DNA of 64,000 nt from Basidiobolus meristosporus CBS 931.73 (lineage: Eukaryota; Basidiobolomycota; Basidiobolomycetes; Basidiobolales; Basidiobolaceae): assembly GCA_002104905.1 (NCBI GenBank), contig MCFE01000146.1, positions 90,558 to 154,557 of the forward strand, given 5' to 3'. The stretch's first letter is position 1. Every line of letters starts with the position of its first letter. Made by a program: the position numbers and the translations under genes. The notes beneath the pieces are model-generated. The model was not told where the DNA came from. It did not search any database and was given only the letters and a program-made list of their open reading frames with translations. Positions 52,131-64,000 of this stretch are shown here, piece by piece.

Positions 52131-52876
52131 TTACAGGGGAGACAGTCACCAACAGGTGAAATCTGTATTTCAGTTGAGACATAGAAGCCAGCACTACTGT
52201 TGCAGCTTTGATACAAGAGTGTGTAGCTGGGTTAGGGGGGATGATAATTACCAAAGGGTGAAGTCTTAATTTAAATCATAAATCAAGAAGCCAAGTTTGA
52301 ATATGAATATCTGAGATGCAGTAAGCCTACAATATGAACTTGGACTTTGCTGTATCCCAAATATCCTCAATATCAAAGTCTAGCAGAGAATGTTGCAAGA
52401 CTGCTTGTTCACTGTAGTATTTCTTGAGGAAGTTTGTGACTTGAAGGGAAGGAGAGTTTTTCAACAAGCTGGTAAACCTTTTGAGGAGTTCTTTTTCCAG
52501 AGAGAATGGTACAAAGAGTGAAATGTCTAAATGATGCCTGAGTACATGCACTGTGAGTTCCCAATCCAGCATATTTTGAATTTTTCTGTAAAATCTTCAA
52601 CAATATCTTTATCAAGAATAACTTCCAAGAGATCCCTAGCAATGTACTGAATGCTAACAATCTTAGGCATATGAATGCTTAGGTCCTTGAGGTGTTTCTT
52701 TGCTCTGATATTGGGAGATAGCCAGCATTTAGGGGAGGGAAATTCACCAAGTTGATGAAATCTTTATTTGAGTCAAGAACTAATCTAAGTACAAATAAAG
52801 AAGCCCATTAAGAAGTCTAGAACCTCTCTAATAAGTAATCTAAATTATGTTTTGTTTCATCTCTAATGTTTGTTTC
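52131..52876 (-). mobile_element. Three stacked 3' tails of a non-LTR retrotransposon
   Basis: Tails begin on the + strand at 52131 (TTACAGGGGAGACAGTCACC), 52232 (TTAGGGGGGATGATAATTACC) and 52729 (TTAGGGGAGGGAAATTCACC). Each is followed by GGTGAA(A)TC and, read on the minus strand, an AATAAAG- or TTAAG-type tail signal. The middle unit retains coding sequence at 52572-52327 (minus): RFTSLLKNSPSLQVTNFLKK and IEDIWDTA, homologous to RFTSLIKNSPSPAVTHFLKD at 63060-62960. The third tail is cut by the Copia-3 LTR at 52877. Confidence 0.65.
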
Positions 52877-53228: not shown

Positions 53229-54560
53229 ATGAGCCCCAAGCTGTCATGCTTTGCAAAGCTATAACTGCTATTACTGGAATTTTTCCCTTTGCTGAAAAGT
53301 TGGATGGATCTAACTACTCTGTGTGGAAGGTGAAGATGAAGATGCTGCTACAAGAAAGAGGCCTTTGGGGTATTGTCATGGGAGAGGAATGCCCTCCTAA
53401 AAATGTGTGAGCAGAAGCCTCAAAGTACCAGAAGAAAGAACAAAGTGCCTTAAACTGCCTTTGCCTTAATGTTAAGGACAAATTGCTAATTCAATGCTCA
53501 AGAGCAAAAACGGCAAAGAATGCCTGGAAGGCATTAGAAGACATGTACCAGTCATGTTCAGCTGCTAGGAAAATGTATCTGAGACAAAAATCTTTACTAC
53601 AAAGATGCTGCTAGAAGAAGAAATGAAAAATCTAATTAACAGAATTACCCTGCTGGTAGATGAAATGGAATCTGTGGGTGTACCAGCTACTGAGGAGGAT
53701 GTGCTAGTTACCATCCTGAATAGCCTGACAGACATGTTTCAGAGCCTTGTATCAGTCCTACAGTCCAGAACTGAAGATTTGACCTTAAAATATGCACATG
53801 GAAGGCTCCTGGAGGAAGAATTAAGAAAATCAAGCGCCAATAAGAAGGAAGAAGAAGATGCTTTAATAAGCAATGATAACCTACAAAGGAAGTACCCAAG
53901 ACCCTACAAAGACAACAGCATCCTGTTTTGCAACTACTGCAAAAGGAAAGGACACACATCAGACCAGTGCTTCAAAAAGAAAGATAGTCAGCAGAAAAAG
54001 CCTGAATATGGAAATGCTCCAACAACTGATGATAGACTATTCATATCTGCACTAAACATGACCACAAGCAAGGATTCTCAGACGTGGTATATTGACTCTG
54101 GAGCATCTTGAAACTTTACACACCAAAAAGAACTTGTACCCAATATCAAGAAATACCAATCAAGAAGGTTTTCATGGGTGACAATACAACACTTGATGCA
54201 GTGGGAGAAGGAACTATCCAAGTAAGCCTAAGAAGCAGTGAGGGTAGCCATACACTGACCTTTGAAGAAGTATTCTATGTACCAGAAATAGCCAAGAACC
54301 TACTATCTGTAAGCAAGGCCACTGCAAAAGGACTCAGTTTCAGCTTTGACAATTCTGGATGCAAGATCACTGATAAAAATGGTGCTCATATTGCTTTGGG
54401 TATCAGAGATCAGAGCCTATGCAAGCTGACTTATACTCCATCATATTTGGAAGCCAATATAAGTAACTTAAATGAAGAAACACCAATGTATTGGCACAGG
54501 GTATTTGGGCACATCAAGTTTGATTATATGCGCAAAATGATCAAAGATCAGCTAATTTCT
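53229..54560 (+). pseudogene. Copia-3 gag-protease-integrase fragment
   Basis: Gag ATG at 53229, disrupted near 53250-53410. The 53605-54111 frame is open through MKNLINRITLLVDEMESVG, an intact CCHC knuckle (CNYCKRKGHTSDQCF near 53929) and the protease motif WYIDSGAS, then stops at TGA 54109-54111. The next frame (54108-54584) carries the protease remainder and the integrase zinc-binding start (MYWHRVFGHIK). Truncated after that. Confidence 0.87.
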
Positions 54561-54933
54561 TGTTGGTTGTGCTTTACGTGTTGATAGAAGTGAAGGCTCC
54601 AACGTTCAACTAAAAACTCAACATTAGATGCGTTTTTGCAGGGTATGTGTATTACTAGCATCCATTTGTGTTCATACAATGTGTTATACGTTAGTTGCGC
54701 TACATTTAATCCAGTAGAGAAATAAACCGGTAATATTAAGCAACATATATGCTATACATTATCCAAAATGTACCGTTTCAATACTCTTGGTGCGTTGGGG
54801 GGGGTAGCAATTTGGGGCTTCAGAGTTACTAGTAACATGGAGCCAGAAGCGAGCTCTCCAAGATATTTTGAGAAATGAGCACTGATCATTAATGTTGGAA
54901 GCAGAATGGGTACAATCTAGTGCTGATTAGAAC
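54561..54933. other. Spacer with CpG, no gene
   Basis: Unlike its neighbours it contains several CpG dinucleotides. No open frame of note; it contains GTTGGGGGGGGTAGC near 54795. Confidence 0.35.
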
Positions 54934-55672
54934 TTAGGGGGGGGGAGACAATCACCATCAGGTGAAATCTTTATTTTGGTTGAAACAAAGAAGCCAGCGC
55001 TACTGTTGTAGCTTTGATACAACAGTGTGTAGCTGAGGGGAGTTTGTAGGTAAGTTAATAAAAAGTGATGATAGTTCTTCAGTGTTCAAGACACTGTTCA
55101 GTGGGAAGGGGGGTTACATGAGGGGTAAGAATGATTTGTGAACAACATTAATGATGGGAATATGATAAGGATTGATATTCATCATGAAGGGAGTGTGCTG
55201 CTGCAGATATTGCTGCCAAAGGTCTGTCAAGTTCTTCAGGTAGGCCAGCTTGGGTTTTTCTGACTGCAGAATATATTGAGTAAACTTCTTGACTTCAGGA
55301 TCTACAAGTATAGTTCTCCATCAGGAGCCAGGTGTAGTGTGGTGTGTTCTCCTCCAGGCCTTGATTAGTGGGTTGTTGCAGTGGTGAAGTCTGAGATATA
55401 ATCTGGCTCTAAGGTAGAGAAGTCTGATCTTATAGGGCATAAACCCAAAAGCACCAAGAATAGCATGTCTGTAGGGGCATTCAGGTAGATGAGGCATCAG
55501 GAAGGTAATGCACCAGACTGCAAATTTGTCAAGCTTAGTGCAGTCTCTAGAAGTAAGAGAGAGAAGTAGTAAGCCAAATTCCAGGACAGGGAAGACAAAC
55601 TGCTTGAGTAGAAGAAGGCAGCTGGGAGCTGAAGTTGTAGGAGGAGTTGTAGCCGGTAGCTTGTGGAGTGCC
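54934..55672 (-). mobile_element. Non-LTR retrotransposon 3' part with reverse transcriptase C-terminus
   Basis: On the minus strand from about 55672 to 55114 the reading is the region downstream of a LINE reverse transcriptase catalytic core. KQFVFPVLEFGLLLL matches the usual F-V-x-P-V-L-E-Y-G segment, followed by DKFAVWC, a leucine/arginine-rich GAFGFMPYKIRLLYLRARLY and NPLIKAWRR, with one in-frame TGA. It ends at TAA 55114-55116. A 180-nt 3' untranslated tail follows with GATACAACAGTAGCGCTGGCTTC, AAAATAAAG and TTTCACCTGATGGTGATTG, and ends in nine C then TAA (54934-54945). The same tail pattern occurs at 52131, 52232, 52729, 62481, 62620, 62768 and 63220. No poly(A) tail is present. It is 5'-truncated; the catalytic YxDD region is not in the window. 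Confidence 0.75.
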
Positions 55673-56230
55673 TGTTGTATCCAAGAGAAAGTGTGATAAA
55701 ACTCTTGAATGGTTTAACTGAACCAAAGGGACAATTAAGTGCAGAATCTTAGAGTTGTCACAGAGTGGCAGAAATATTAGCAGAAAGATTCTGATCTAAT
55801 ATTGGTCTTGGATATAGCTGGGTTGGCTATAAAGACAATGATATTTGTTTGCTAGGCAGGCTAGGCTTGGTGTTCTTTGGAGTGCTAGATATACTAGGCT
55901 TGGATAGAAACTAGAACTGAATTGTTGGATTTTTATTTTTGCTGAGACAGAATCTTGATTTTGTTGAGACACACACTAAACCAAAAGGTTCAGTAAACTT
56001 TATTTATACTTTTCTGATCAAGTTGAATTAGTAAGCACCAAGGGACTGGATTGATTGAAATCAATTTGGGTGTTCATAGGTGCATAAGATAAATGAATAT
56101 TACATCATCAATCAACTGATGTCTTGGCAACTGCACAGTGGTTGGATAGATCTCAGATGACTAATCACCTGGGAAGGCTTGGCAGATAGGTTGATAATGT
56201 AATGACCATTTGAAAATAGATCAGGTGTCA
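55673..56230 (+). repeat. LTR family C, solo full-length copy
   Basis: 558 bp, TGTTGTATCCAAGAG to GATCAGGTGTCA; defines the ends of this family. It lies immediately 5' (minus sense) of the retrotransposon fragment, which it truncates. No coding sequence attached. Confidence 0.7.
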
Positions 56231-56885: not shown

Positions 56886-57690
56886 TCCCGCGGGAATTGT
56901 AAAACTTAGCCACATGGTACAAAAGTGCTTAAATTTTACATCATGATAGTTTTACATGAGTTTCTAACGCACTTTGAAAGTACGCAGTAGCTATACCCCA
57001 ACAGGTTTTAAGGATGTCCACTTGCTACATCTACTTGTGTCTAGCGGGAGCCATCAATCATCAGCCGCGCAATACTGAAATGCTTTTATTTTTCATGATG
57101 CTAGTTTTGTATGAGTCCCTAATGCACTTTCATAGTGCACGGTAACCATACCCCAACAGGTTTTAAGGATACCCACTTGCTATGTTTACTTGTGTCTAGC
57201 GGGAGTTATCAATCATCAGCCATGCGGTAATAAAGTGCTTTTATTTTTCATCATGATAGTTTTACATGAGTCCTTAACGCACTTGTATAGTGCGTGGTAA
57301 CCATACCCCAACAGGTTTTAAGGATACCCACTTGCTACGTTTACTTGTGTCTAGCGGGAGTTATCAATCATCAGCCGCGCGGTAATAAAGTGCTTTTATT
57401 TTTCATCATGATAGTTTTACATGAGTCCTTAACGCACTTTCATAGTGCGTGGTAACCATACCCCAACAGGTTTTAAGGATACCCACTTGCTATGTTTACT
57501 TGTGTCTAGCGGGAGTTATCAATCATCAGCCACGCGGTAATAAAGTGCTTTTATTTTTCATCATGATAGTTTTACATGAGTCCCTAACGCACTTTTATAG
57601 TGCGCGGTAACCATACCCCCAGAAAGTAGTGTGGATGCTTACTTTAAACGCTCACTTGTGTATTGTACGGACTATCAACAAACAGCCGCG
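56886..57690. repeat. Tandem array, 155-bp unit, about five copies
   Basis: The landmark CTAGCGGGAG lies at 57041, 57196, 57351 and 57506, an exact 155-bp period. A more diverged unit precedes (CGCGGGAATTG near 56889) and another follows (TTGTACGGACTATCAAC near 57655). The three middle units are nearly identical. Each contains GTTTTACATGAGTC, AACGCACTT.(A/T)TAGTGCG, CCATACCCCAACAGGTTTTAAGGAT and GCCGCG. No open frame spans a unit. CpG is retained, in contrast to the AT-rich repeats on both sides. Confidence 0.92.
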
Positions 57691-59576: not shown

Positions 59577-59767
59577 CTTGAGTAAATAAAGAATTTCCAC
59601 CATCCCAAATCAATGAATTGACAAGTAATAAGTTGAACTGATAAGATTGATGATTTACAGACTAATATATGTAAAGTATGTAGTACTTAAGAGCTTTCAA
59701 GTTGTGGTGTATTATCAAGTATTCACCGTCACATAAATCACGCAACAGTTGTTGTATCCCTATCCCA

Positions 59768-62480
59768 ATGGCATTAGAAGCTAGCAGATACAAGGAGCAT
59801 TGGAAAAATTTTGGCGTTTACCTGGCAACGGTGGCAGGTGTAACAAAACGCAGCTATTGCTTGATGACCATTACCCTGTCTATGAGATACTTGCTATTAT
59901 ATGGAGGGTATTCTGTTGAGCACTTTCAAGACAGCAAAATATCCCCGCCTTATGATGAGCATATAGCTGAAGAAACATCCAGCCGTGGAATACTCTATGA
60001 GCCCAGCTCAAAGGTTCAAATGATTCACCTTGCAGATCTACACGGTGATGAAGACATCACAGTGACAGTTCTCCCAACTCCAGACAACATATCAACTACA
60101 GAGGCAGCCAAAGGGGTGATTTTAATTGGCAACAGCTGTGCTAGTGACCACGGGAATCTCTACATATATGGTGGTTTTGAGCTGAGCCGTAGAGAATACT
60201 CAGGGCAACATGAAAGTGCCAAAAAACGGGGGAAAAAAGCGATACAAAGTAAGAGTGGGGAGACAATCAATAGAAGACTGAACAAGCTGGAGGTAATCAC
60301 GTACAAAGATGGCAATGGATGCTCCAGAGTATTGGAGACAAGGCCATTCTTGAATAATCCGGCAAATATGCCTTCAGCAAGAGGTTGGGCAGTTCTTACG
60401 TACGCATTTGATTGCTTATTCTTGCTGGGCGGCTATCCTACACCATCAGAACCACCTTATACCCAACCAAATGGGAGTTTTTTAAACAAGTTCTACTGTT
60501 TAAAATTGCAAACTGGTGATTGGGAAAGATGATATGTACACTCAGCAATACAGGAGCTTAGAGAAAACTTTATTGCTGTGGTAAACAAGCATGGCAACCA
60601 AATCCAATACATCAACAATGCAAATGTTACATTCACCTATGATGTTGATAATCAGATCTGGATTTACCCTCCCAATCCAAGTCAGGAAGAAATGAGTACA
60701 AAGCAGCTACTAGGGCGCATTCTTAATGAATTGGCAGCAATCTCTCAGCGGCACAAGAGGGAAGGCAAAGGAAGTGCTGAGACTGAAAATATCTTGCAAC
60801 ATAGTGCCCATGGTCTTACTGTCCCACTTAAGAACCATCAAGCATTTGGCGTACAATGGCTGATGTATACAGAGGCCATCCATAAAGGAGCATTGCTTGC
60901 CAATTCCATGGGACTTGGAAAGACATTGCAGATATTAAGTCTCATATTGGAGACACCTGAGCAAAGGCCAAATCTTATTGCTGTCACGCTTGGAATACTT
61001 CTCAATTGGGTGATGGAGATAAAGACAAAAACAAGGATATCCAATGAAGAGCTTCATGTATTTCATGGAAAATTCCGAGCTATCAAGAAGTCAGATATGG
61101 AGACTAAGAGGATTGTGCTCACCACCTACCACACACTATGTGTTGAAGCAAGGAACCCCAATTTGCCTATATGGAATGTGAAATTTGGCCAAATAGTGGC
61201 CAATGAGGCAGATACACTTAAGAACTACAAAGGTGGTAGCTTAAACGCAGTAAGTAAAATTGATGGAGAATCCTTGATACTTGTCACTGCCACCCCATTC
61301 CAAAATGAGATTATGGATCTTTATTCATATTTCACATTATTCAATCTATGGGAAGGCATTCCAAAGGATTTCCATTGACTCCTACTTGAGGAGGCCAATG
61401 CAAACAGGCTAGTTGAATGGGTTGTAGAAAGACTTGGCCCATTAATATTGAGACGTGTTCCAGAGTCACAAATATTTGGAGAACGCACAGTATCCATGCC
61501 TAGTATTCAAGAGCAGATTGACTTGTGCCAATTCTTGCCGGAGGAGCTGCAGGAGTACAAACAACTGCAGTCAAGTCTTCCAGAGGAAGTCGGTTGGATG
61601 GGTGCAAATACCTATCTGCGTCTGTACTCATGCCATCCATATATGTATACCTGGAGCAGGAAGAGGAATTGACTGAAAAAAGCGGCTGATGCTAGCATTG
61701 TTCATGATGTCAAGATGAGTGAGGATTATTTTCCACCTGAGATTGATGAGGATCTTGAGGCGGTTGCGGTTGAGGTTGAGGAGCAGCTTCAAGAGATTAA
61801 TAGCAAAGAGGTTGACAGCTCATCCAACGTTCCATCTACTTCTGCACCAACTGCCATATGCACTGAAGACGCCCCTACAATTGCCCAAAGAGGGCTTGCA
61901 TTAGAGGACTCCAACAGGGTATTCATCCAAGATTTCCTCACTGGTGTAACCAACAACACTTTGAATGAGCATAGTGGCAAAACTTGGAAAATCATGGAAA
62001 TCCAGCTTGAAATCCAAGAAAATAAGGAGCACACACGTGTTATTATTTTTTCTGGGTTTAATCTGATGCTTGACATAGTGGCTTACCATTTGAGGGAGCA
62101 GAGCATTGAACATCTGAAGATTACCGGTTCCACCCCAGTTTGGATACAAAAGAGCAGTATAGATACATTTGCATTGCCAGTTCCGGAGGGCAAGATTTGT
62201 GTGTTACTGATCAACATCAAATGTGTTGCATTTGGATTAAATTTGCAGATGCCATTGGCGGGGATCATTGCCGACAATTGGTGGAATACCTATGTAGAAA
62301 TCCAAGCAAAGGCCAGAGTTTGGAGGGTGAATCAACCAAATAATGTTTCTACTTACCAGTTAGTCATGCAAGATTCCATTGAAGCTCAGGGTGTAATTGA
62401 CAGTCAAACTTGTAAGATTGGCTTATTTGGCCAGATTACGCATACGTTGGTAGATGAAGCATCCAAAGTACCAATTTCAT
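59768..62480 (+). pseudogene. Kelch plus SNF2-type helicase gene, TGA-interrupted and 3'-truncated
   Basis: One frame from ATG 59768 to 62480, about 904 codons, broken only by TGA at 60530-60532, 61376-61378 and 61670-61672. Residues about 30-255 contain kelch-like blades (RYLLLYGGYS, GNLYIYGGFE, DCLFLLGGYP). The SNF2 ATPase follows. Motif I is NSMGLGKTLQILSLI (usually DEMGLGKT), motif Ia is NLIAVTLGILLNW, motif II is NEADTLKN in place of DEAH-like, and motif III is LVTATPFQN. The helicase C lobe has VIIFSGFNLMLDIV and motif VI QAKARVWRVNQPNNV (usual form Q-x-x-x-R-x-x-R-x-x-Q). The changed motifs I and II suggest weakened ATPase activity or later decay. The coding sequence ends where a retrotransposon tail begins at 62481; the final 10 codons of the open frame belong to that tail. 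Kelch joined to SNF2 is not a combination I know from a named family. Confidence 0.7.
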
Positions 62481-63450
62481 TTAGGGGGGGGAGGAAAGTC
62501 ACCAAGTGGTGAAATCTTTATTTACTAATGACAAGTATCTAAAGAAGCCAAGTTAATCTGAAGTAATTCCTAGAAAGCTAGGTCTGAGAGATATCTTCCT
62601 GGTAAGCCAGGTCTGAGAGTTGAGGGGAGGGAAAGTCACCAAGGTAGGTGAAATCTTTATTTGATTTCAGACAAGTCTAACTACAAATAAAGAAGCCAAG
62701 TTAATCTGAAGTAATTCCTAGAAAGCTAGGTCTGAGAGATATCTTCCTGGTAAGCCAGGTCTGAGAGTTGAGGGGAGGGAAAGTCACCAAGGTAGGTGAA
62801 ATCTTTATTTGATTTCAGACAAGTCTAACTACAAATAAAGAAGCCAGCTGGGAATAGAAGATTCCCAAAGTAAATAGTAAGTTGAATATGAATAAATCTA
62901 AGCTAAAGTTAAGGCAGTATCCCAGAGTACACTGGAGTTCAGGTTCATGGGGGAGTGAAGTAGATAAGCTTGAGAGATATAATAATCTTTGAGGAAGTGG
63001 GTAACAGCAGGTGAAGGGGAGTTTTTGATAAGTGAGGTGAATCTTGAGAGCAGAGATTCCTCTAATGAGAAGGTCTTGTAAACTGGAGAATCAGGAAACT
63101 CTTTAAAGGCATGGTCAGTAGGTTCCCAGTAAAGCTGGTCAGAAACATTTTGAGAGAACTCTTTAGCAATACTTTTGTCAAGTACTACCTCCAGAGTGTG
63201 ATGGTTGATAAATCTCATGTTAGGGGGAGGAAAGTCACCAAGTGGTGAAATCTTTATTTACTTATGACAAGTATCTAAAGAAGCCAAGTTAATCTGAAGT
63301 TATTCCTAGAAAGCTAGGTCTGAGAGATATCTTCCTGGTAAGCCAGGTCTGAGAGTTGAGAAGCTGAGTGGTACTATATTTCCTAGTTAGCTAGGTCTGA
63401 GAGAGGTTTCCTGGAAAGCCAGGCCTGAGAAGTGAGAATCTGAATATATC
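62481..63450 (-). mobile_element. Stack of four non-LTR retrotransposon tails next to the telomere
   Basis: Tails start on the + strand at 62481 (TTAGGGGGGGGAGGAAAGTC), 62620 (TTGAGGGGAGGGAAAGTCACC), 62768 (same) and 63220 (TTAGGGGGAGGAAAGTCACC). Each continues CCAAG..GGTGAAATCTTTATTT, which is AATAAAG then a hairpin-forming TTTCACC...GGTGA on the minus strand. All are head-to-tail in one orientation. The third unit retains coding sequence at 63218-62898 (minus), including HHTLEVVLDKSIAKEF and RFTSLIKNSPSPAVTHFLKD. The first, second and fourth are tail only. Hairpin units (CCTAG-CTAGG, CCTGG-CCAGG) recur in the tails. Confidence 0.7.
62898..63218 (-). pseudogene. C-terminal fragment of a retrotransposon ORF
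   Basis: 106 codons from the junction with the distal tail (ATG formed at 63218) to the stop at 62898. Its last 55 residues are homologous to the fragment at 52572-52327 (SLEESLLSRFTSL against SLEKELLKRFTSL; VLWDTA against DIWDTA). In both places it is followed by the tail with AAATAAAG. It is the conserved C-terminal end of a protein of this element, truncated at the 5' side. Its function is not known to me. Confidence 0.6.
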
Positions 63451-63746
63451 TGAGCTAAGTTATACTGGTTTGCGGTAGCTGAATTGTGGCCAGAATGGCC
63501 AGTAGACTGGGGGAGCTGAGATGAATTTCTGGGCGATCACTGGCCAAATTTACTAGGCAAATCTGGCCAATTAGCATTTCAAGGATTTCAGCCAATCAGA
63601 GCCTTTACTTTGCCCGATGGTTGATCAAGCCATCTCCCAATGAGCACACATCAATTTTATTAATCAAATTTTTGCTGGATCCAGGATTTGAACCCACAAC
63701 CATGGGTATGGAAGGGTTAGGGATAACCACAAGGCTAAGTGTTCTT
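63451..63746. other. Subterminal DNA with tRNA-like A and B boxes (minus strand)
   Basis: Read on the minus strand, TAGCCTTGTGG (63737-63727) fits the Pol III A box and GGGTTCAAATCC (63695-63684) fits the B box, in the correct order about 40 bp apart. The stems of a tRNA cloverleaf are poor, so this is a tRNA relic or SINE head rather than a tRNA gene. CCCTAACCC lies between the boxes. The rest (63451-63680) has no gene. Confidence 0.45.
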
Positions 63747-64000
63747 GGTTGGGTTAGGGTTAGGGTTAGGGTTAGGGTTAGGGTTAGGGTTAGGGTTAGG
63801 GTTAGGGTTAGGGTTAGGGTTAGGGTTAGGGTTAGGGTTAGGGGTTAGGGTTAGGGTTAGGGTTAGGGTTAGGGTTAGGGTTAGGGTTAGGGTTAGGGTT
63901 AGGGTTAGGGTTAGGGTTAGGGTTAGGGTTAGGGTTAGGGTTAGGGTTAGGGTTAGGGTGGGTTAGGGTTAGGGTTAGGTTAGGTTAGTTAGGGTTAGGG
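63747..64000 (+). repeat. Telomere repeat array (TTAGGG)n
   Basis: About 41 hexamers to the end of the window, G-rich strand running 5' to 3' outward, so the right edge is the chromosome end. Variants: one extra G near 63841; GGGTGGG near 63960; short TTAGG and TTAG units near 63976-63990. Long Leu-Gly or Val-Arg frames here are artefacts of the repeat. Confidence 0.98.

Follow-up and report, generated by a model that had tools for sequence, protein, structure and literature searches.

What kind of element lies stacked against a chromosome end of Basidiobolus meristosporus CBS 931.73, and how did its copies arrive there? The window, i.e. the whole stretch of 64,000 nucleotides that was analysed (G000:C365:90558-154557), occupies the right end of a contig of 154,557 bases (assembly: 89.0 Mb, 1,311 contigs), and it closes at the contig end with a plus-strand TTAGGG array (about 63747-64000, from the sequence and TRF). 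The original prediction, made from the sequence alone, held that eight truncated copies of one non-LTR retrotransposon family share a 3' tail in this window, that four of them are stacked inside the telomere, and that the family is directed to telomeres, ending in C-runs joined to CCCTAA instead of poly(A).

Tail-sharing copies in the window

To locate copies, the window was aligned with one genomic copy from each of five tail-sharing families: two APE-type LINEs (A and E), two ORF1-only families (C and D), and one 521-bp SINE (B). The alignment confirmed eight copies with one shared 3' tail, all in one orientation (minus strand) and four of them stacked against the terminal TTAGGG array; the single family first proposed is thereby widened to five, and the terminal stack is non-autonomous, consisting of SINE and ORF1-only pieces. 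Further inside the window are the 3'-terminal 91 bp of LINE-A (52139..52229, 94.5% to the LINE-A copy in L070), a 5'-truncated family D copy (3' 493 bp, 52240..52730, 91.7% to the L078 copy), a 5'-truncated LINE-E copy (3' 142 bp, 52735..52876, 95.8% to the L079 copy), and a 5'-truncated LINE-A copy (3' 731 bp, 54945..55675, 94.4% to LINE-A) that spans the 3' UTR and the ORF2 C-terminus and is preceded by TTAGGGGGGGG. LTR-retrotransposon gag/protease-like frames (zinc knuckle by eye) lie between two groups of tail copies at 53569-54584 on the plus strand, and a tandem repeat (155 bp, 4.6 copies, 89% matches) occupies 56908-57619.

The terminal stack begins at 62480/62481, within an SNF2-helicase-like frame whose DNA is joined directly to the first copy by the plus-strand linker TTAGGGGGGG (62481..62490). 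It is composed of a 5'-truncated SINE (3' 134 bp, 62491..62624, 98.5%), a B/C chimera in which a C-type tail is fused to a SINE body (62630..62772, tile 87.4% to B), a 5'-truncated family C copy with the ORF1 C-terminus (3' 447 bp, 62775..63221, 99.1%), and a SINE whose 5' end adjoins the telomere (63227..63749, 98.3% over the whole 521-bp unit). This last copy is full length, although the copies had been described as truncated; the stack runs to about 63749, not 63450, and abuts the telomere rather than lying inside it. The chimera is part of a perfect 148-bp tandem duplication (62540-62846; TRF, 2.1 copies, 100% matches), which suggests template switching or recombination at shared sequence. 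The helicase-like frame (59684-62512, plus strand) has three in-frame TGA and no TAA or TAG and is cut by the stack at 62481; it looks like a decayed subtelomeric gene that formerly ran to a broken end.

A core tail pattern, TCACC-N4-GGTGAAATCTTTATTT with up to 3 mismatches, has five matches in the window and none in 100 shuffles, and alignment recovered the three copies outside it, E at 52735 and both C-type tails, whose loops measure 5 or 6 nt. The tail start had been given as TTAGGGG or a close variant, and five of the eight copies start with TTAGGG or TTAGGGG; the other three are variants, ACAGGG at 52139 and TTGAGGGG at the two tandem 148-bp units. A 3' hairpin of the element RNA (63235..63248, minus strand; plus strand TCACC-AAGT-GGTGA) is common to the five families, and the predicted RNA 3' end of the full SINE beside the telomere, read on the minus strand, is ...AAATAAAGATTTCACC-ACTT-GGTGACTTTCCTCCCCCTAA. 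Because the hairpin stem is identical across the five reference tails, it has no support from covariation, and tail-fold z-scores fall below -3 in two families, are near zero in one, and lie at about -1.2 in the remaining two; folding energy alone is therefore no proof of the hairpin. A second hairpin upstream of the conserved one in single-sequence folds was rejected because other parts of these elements did as well. The copies inspected carry C-run tails and no poly(A). AATAAA, invariant in the five reference tails and placed some 30 nt short of their ends, resembles a poly(A) signal and possibly marks 3'-end processing; if it is used, we speculate that priming inside the UAA would be required, since poly(A) is not copied.

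Five element families and their proteins

LINE-A was found via a C-terminal peptide at 55321-55713, with which full copies were then retrieved, and the reconstructed element is about 4.56 kb long: a 5' region in which units of about 100 bp may be repeated in tandem, an open ORF1 frame of 523 codons, TGA, ORF2 (922 codons, encoding an APE-like endonuclease and a LINE reverse transcriptase, RT), a short 3' UTR, and the tail. The 922-aa frame is intact in 29 of 150 scored LINE-A matches (1,021 candidates), and LINE-E, with an ORF1 of 556 codons, has a stop-free 949-aa ORF2 frame in 14 of 150 scored matches (by eye; 1,163 candidates). Across copies the 3' end is constant and the 5' truncation variable, a hallmark of LINEs. 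Tandem units at the telomere-adjacent RNA 5' end, reminiscent of the FoTeR VNTRs, occur in a LINE-A copy on C370 (L072; units of about 100 bp) and in a family C copy on C244 (L075; units of about 87 bp).

The LINE-A ORF2 protein matches Pfam RVT_1 (2.6e-25) and LINE-1 ORF2 (6.2e-13). A LINE-type RT C-terminus had been predicted at 54934-55672, and the copy there does belong to a LINE whose intact frame contains RVT_1, but a Pfam search of the copy's own frames returned no RT match. Upstream of the RT is an APE-like domain (Exo_endo_phos_2, 0.00052; Exo_endo_phos, 0.02; both below the curated cut-offs) in which the APE residues N8, Y93, D126, N128, D171, and S200-D201-H202 align with those of 10 other LINE ORF2 proteins, hand-picked from 74 more distant matches. 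In the alignment, the endonuclease glutamate is replaced by aspartate in L070, P0001, and P0003, the three of three A-type proteins that reach the position, and is glutamate in the 10 others; the aligned residue of LINE-E is also aspartate (by eye). No restriction-like endonuclease domain C-terminal to the RT is among the Pfam matches, the APE-like domain preceding the RT. Five metagenome proteins (P0001-P0005) are close relatives of ORF2 (48-80% identity, 8,000 candidates scored), and in an RT tree of 81 rows without named clade references they form their own 100/100 clade with A and E, on a long stem. E falls beside P0005 and A beside P0002, and the two are well separated.

The reference units of family C (1.6 kb) and family D (1.3 kb) have just an ORF1-like frame of 271 and 297 aa, respectively, with no RT frame seen, and these frames align with the C-terminal part of LINE ORF1 (29% and 24%). 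The family C ORF1 peptide of the window copy at 62775..63221 has 150 scored genome matches of 489 candidates. One ORF1 relative comes from B. ranarum (55% by BLAST over 68%; 60% in a MAFFT alignment). Family B is classed as a SINE with a putative internal pol III promoter: its unit has A-box- and B-box-like motifs at the RNA 5' end and no TTTT run. In the full-length window copy the B-box-like motif GGTTCAAATCC (63684..63694, minus strand) matches the consensus used perfectly and the A-box-like motif TAGCCTTGTGG (63727..63737, minus strand) has one mismatch; an A box at nt 13 (1 mismatch) with a B box at nt 56 was matched by none of 20,000 mononucleotide shuffles. A 27-mer of the SINE 5' end has 204 exact genome matches, and neither ARAGORN nor Rfam called a tRNA that would mark a tRNA-derived head. 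The SINE shares the hairpin and C-run with the LINEs, its tail being closest to those of E and C (by eye).

In both LINEs the boundary between ORF1 and ORF2 reads TCTGCC-TGA-CTA-C within one continuous frame, and the first 141 codons of ORF2 in A, like the first 58 in E, lack an ATG. A pattern with the stop left open matches 140 LINE-A places, with TGA in 100 of the 100 listed, and the same pattern for LINE-E has TGA in 8/8 places; since close copies share UGA-CUA by descent, only the comparison of A with E is independent. Two ORF1-only copies that were checked end in TAG. Reassignment of UGA, prompted by the three in-frame TGA of the helicase-like frame, was discarded: TGA closes two of nine histone H3 genes in the genome, and UGA is thus an ordinary stop. 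CUA after UGA is reported to suffice for efficient readthrough in Ustilago maydis (PMC4207609), and from the boundary sequence we infer that an ORF1-EN-RT fusion may be made by readthrough of UGA-CUA. The main rival is termination-reinitiation, or else an internal non-AUG start, by which ORF2 would be translated separately; we regard this as somewhat unlikely. SART1 reinitiates at UAAUG, which counts for such a route. Expression of TART ORF2 is described as unexplained, and an unusual AUG-independent initiation is under consideration for mammalian LINEs (PMC5009743); both likewise count for it. The continuous frame and the ATG-free start of ORF2 argue against it, along with the TAG ends of the two ORF1-only copies and the retention of UGA-CUA across two families with well-separated RTs.

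Location, stacking and junctions

The exact 16-mer GGTGAAATCTTTATTT has 1,555 forward and 150 reverse matches in the genome (1,705), and a reversed-pattern control has none. Requiring the other hairpin half upstream gives 1,492 and 134 matches (about 1,600 tails), and a slightly shorter pattern with TTAGGG up to 14 nt upstream of the hairpin gives 1,339 and 109, some places matching twice. Of the 100 places listed among these 1,705 16-mers, every one is no more than 24.7 kb from the contig end it faces, and 85 are within 10 kb; on 10 contigs longer than 100 kb, 36 of 36 tails among the matches listed are near the faced end, against 12% expected. LINE-A ORF2 matches are within 12.2 kb of the faced end in 148 of 150 scored (1,021 candidates), and on contigs of at least 50 kb, 113 of 115 are within 25 kb of it, against 23% expected. 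The tail copies listed lie near contig ends rather than scattered, and this placement of tails and ORF2, together with the APE-like endonuclease and LINE RT, supports the telomere-directed non-LTR element with a C-run/CCCTAA end and no poly(A) that had been proposed. The two exceptions, one lying well within a contig of 218 kb, next to a family C match (C558:97234; G000:C558:97234-98629) and one pointing away from its near end, opposite to three neighbours (C726:58544; G000:C726:56447-66426), are possibly internalised relics, misjoined contigs, or true internal insertions. The forward excess of tails mirrors that of TTAGGG triplets across the assembly (8,002 forward vs 103 reverse, overlapping matches, about 80-fold), and for some contigs whose left end bears elements no array is among the matches listed at that end; both look like an assembly habit. 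A plasmid collection searched with LINE-A yielded no match.

One copy of each of the five families was aligned to 244 kb of sequence in 47 non-redundant segments, chosen for holding tails or ORF matches, and within these selected segments the 3' end points inward in 154 of 154 tiles, with none reversed. Fifteen tiles start at a segment edge and 122 of the other 139 start no more than 3 nt from the 3' end of the reference, the remaining 17 being 5' tandem units of LINE-A (13) and partial pieces (four). The tiles form 85 head-to-tail junctions, 81 of them distinct, at which linkers of zero to six TTAG units number 10, 46, 12, 5, 5, 2, and 1, respectively, one unit being commonest. At 36 further junctions to non-family DNA, zero to three units number 11, 22, 2, and 1, under a counting rule that demands a telomere-like suffix and scores some single units as zero, including the junction at 62481 in the window. 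Contig ends read to the last base have arrays of 210-247 nt (about 35-41 units) in 10 of 11 cases, and the eleventh (C23) reads 102 because its array is interrupted; the last copy is within 5 nt of the array at eight of the 11. Linkers of mostly zero or one unit, compared with about 35-41 terminal units, suggest that the acceptor ends were almost without telomere, although interstitial repeats could have been lost after insertion, short linkers then resulting from later breakage or contraction, as described for MoTeR.

At 5'-truncated outer junctions the visible telomere register takes all six phases (12, 11, 10, 8, 8, and 7). Microhomology at outer junctions averages 1.95 nt vs 0.77 nt in a null of random truncation that allows for alignment extension (highest of 3,000 trials 1.34; n=56). 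From the 81 distinct junctions, this count omits the 16 full-length ends and 9 unscorable cases whose first bases are not telomeric. When shared nucleotides are assigned to the telomere, 20 junctions start with TTAGGG and 17 with AGGG (37/56), and a partial register preference is therefore possible. In-frame seeds of 1-7 nt at 17 of 23 truncated MoTeRs have been read as telomere addition (PMC7367193). The microhomology at outer junctions fits seeding by telomerase, and it could also fit microhomology joining in ordinary target-primed insertion.

Family A copies are closer to the intact copy the nearer they lie to the contig end (Spearman -0.57, n=49, p=1.6e-5), with the same but non-significant trend in families B (n=18, p=0.08) and C (n=12, p=0.06) and too few copies of D and E. 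In same-family pairs per segment the outer copy is the closer one in 34 and the inner in 13, these pairs being non-independent and 24 of them from one segment; with one pair per segment the numbers are 12 and 5. In another segment (L077, 55-1002, minus strand) a frame resembles by eye the C-terminal part of a different LINE ORF2, and a SINE sits there with GGGTTAGGGGG; this is apparently another end broken inside a retrotransposon.

Possible routes to the chromosome end

We consider it probable that A and E are a chromosome-end lineage of APE-type LINEs supporting the ORF1-only families C and D and the SINE B, with insertion primed on ends, re-capping by telomerase, and an EN-RT made by readthrough. 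The 3' end of the element RNA would consist of a 5-bp hairpin that a short spacer separates from a C-run closing with UAA, the latter complementary to the G-strand of the telomere, and the RT of the LINEs would recognise this shared tail on LINE, ORF1-only, and SINE RNAs. An RNA ending ...CCCCCUAA would pair with the G-strand end carrying the 3'-OH (...TTAGGG), and reverse transcription, as we infer from the junctions, would start at the TTAGGG 3' end of a chromosome with a very short or broken telomere. First-strand cDNA primed there would place the 3' tail of the element inward and its 5' side outward, matching all of the tiles, and the copy would become the new chromosome end. Truncation at the 5' side would follow from an early stop of synthesis, or could be erosion of the end. 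Starting from chance matches of 2-3 nt, telomerase would then seed a fresh array on the copy. The genome probably supplies a telomerase for such rebuilding, since two stretches at C880 (40.5 and 34.7 bits) code for a telomerase RNA-binding domain, one of them containing a TAG that possibly marks an intron. The EN-RT (ORF2) itself would be produced as an ORF1-ORF2 fusion through UGA-CUA readthrough.

TRAS and SART of the silkworm, which have telomere repeats as their target and are reportedly APE-type with two ORFs, as here, provide the strongest alternative for insertion, which we judge unlikely: the APE endonuclease would nick a long TTAGGG array near its inner boundary, and the distal array would be the remainder beyond the insertion. 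Conservation of the APE-like domain with its aligned N, Y, D/N, D, and SDH motifs argues that the elements may nick within the array instead of using a free end; telomere repeats flank full-length copies on both sides, and the 17 of 56 outer junctions that start with AGGG, shared nucleotides being given to the telomere, have the TT/AGG position of TRAS and SART. Set against this, the visible outer register is spread over six phases, whereas SART and TRAS insert at one position, and the endonuclease glutamate appears as aspartate in the three A-type proteins and LINE-E. Linkers are of zero or one unit at 56 of 81 head-to-tail junctions and 33 of 36 junctions to other DNA, whereas SART is reported to need at least three repeats, to insert at one position, and to have poly(A) tails (PMC7265360), in contrast to the C-run tails, spread of registers, and zero to one repeat at most junctions found here.

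It is less probable still, though conceivable, that a few old insertions were copied among ends by break-induced replication and unequal exchange, with little retrotransposition. MoTeR arrays are described as rearranging in this way (PMC7367193), an identical junction series occurs on C2 and C484, the 54945 copy of the window recurs with its flank on C627, and the window has its 148-bp tandem duplication and B/C chimera. Such spread does not account well for 81 of 85 junctions being distinct, with differing truncation points and linkers, for the many intact frames (922 aa in 29 of the 150 scored LINE-A matches), or for the most intact family A copies being the outer ones. Penelope-like elements of the endonuclease-deficient Athena/Coprina type, which are said to be terminal elements of fungi and rotifers ending against telomere repeats, can be dismissed almost entirely given the RT matches to LINE-1 ORF2 and RVT_1, the upstream APE-like domain, the separate ORF1, and the finding that the other tree proteins alignable over the endonuclease are APE-LINEs.

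A telomere-directed lifestyle is already known from HeT-A/TART, TRAS/SART, MoTeR, and FoTeR. The novelty appears to lie in the lineage itself, in the SINE and ORF1-only elements that accompany it, and in the putative readthrough; the open-access passages searched contained no description of a telomere-directed SINE, of LINE ORFs joined by UGA-CUA, or of telomeric retrotransposons in Basidiobolus. HeT-A, TART, and TAHRE of Drosophila reportedly end in oligo(A), whereas the tails here end in C-runs and a SINE is present. They resemble the present families in their head-to-tail stacks at ends and in having a gag-only partner beside RT-bearing elements, and their insertion at broken ends has been reported (PMC4700185, PMC5009743, PMC3828246). 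Drosophila is described as lacking telomerase and telomeric repeats, whereas TTAGGG arrays and a telomerase domain are present here.

MoTeR, cited as a precedent in the original prediction, holds as one for the lifestyle but has a restriction-like endonuclease. Both kinds occur in fungi, MoTeR 5' ends also face the chromosome terminus, interstitial tracts of TTAGGG are short, MoTeR2 is a second element with both of its ends in common, and FoTeR has VNTRs (PMC7367193, PMC8381367, PMC12857005). FoTeR and MoTeR1 (Fusarium and Pyricularia, respectively) are described with a CRE-type restriction-like endonuclease, marked by CCHC, RHD/N, and PD-like motifs, C-terminal to the RT (PMC12857005), in contrast to the APE-like domain N-terminal to the RT, the two ORFs joined by UGA-CUA, the ORF1-only elements, and the SINE found here. 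Hebe, a jockey-clade element of bdelloid rotifers, is likewise an APE-LINE with a gag ORF, concentrated near telomeres (PMC2861651). The same source, in the text available, describes Hebe as without 5' truncations and makes no mention of a telomere-matching tail (PMC2861651). Copies here, unlike those of Hebe, are mostly 5'-truncated.

Another likeness is to stringent-type LINE/SINE pairs, in which a 3' stem-loop tail is shared and, for stringent LINEs, is thought to be recognised by the RT (PMC4176376, PMC5135761). In the families described here, the tail is shared by LINEs, ORF1-only elements, and a SINE. Eel UnaL2/UnaSINE1 is an example of such a pair, and these pairs are not known to be telomere-directed.

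Somewhat short of an even chance, in our estimate, is the broader proposal that these elements are an end-healing guild of a fungus, in which telomere-complementary RNA 3' ends would act as mobile telomerase templates capping near-repeatless ends in a host with a telomerase gene, and which would include a telomere-directed SINE and a LINE using UGA-CUA readthrough. Telomere-bound LINEs arose several times, yet there are few systems in which the meeting of RNA tail, RT, and chromosome end is understood. This one genome offers about 1,600 natural junctions, five templates with a short common 3' tail, and a telomerase gene, making it testable whether eroded ends are capped in this way, whether one RT serves LINE, ORF1-only, and SINE RNAs via the hairpin and C-run, and whether UGA-CUA readthrough sets the ratio of ORF1 to EN-RT. 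The parallel with Drosophila, where RT-bearing and gag-only elements also occur together at ends, is here found in a telomerase-bearing host and bears on how retrotransposon telomeres might take the place of telomerase.
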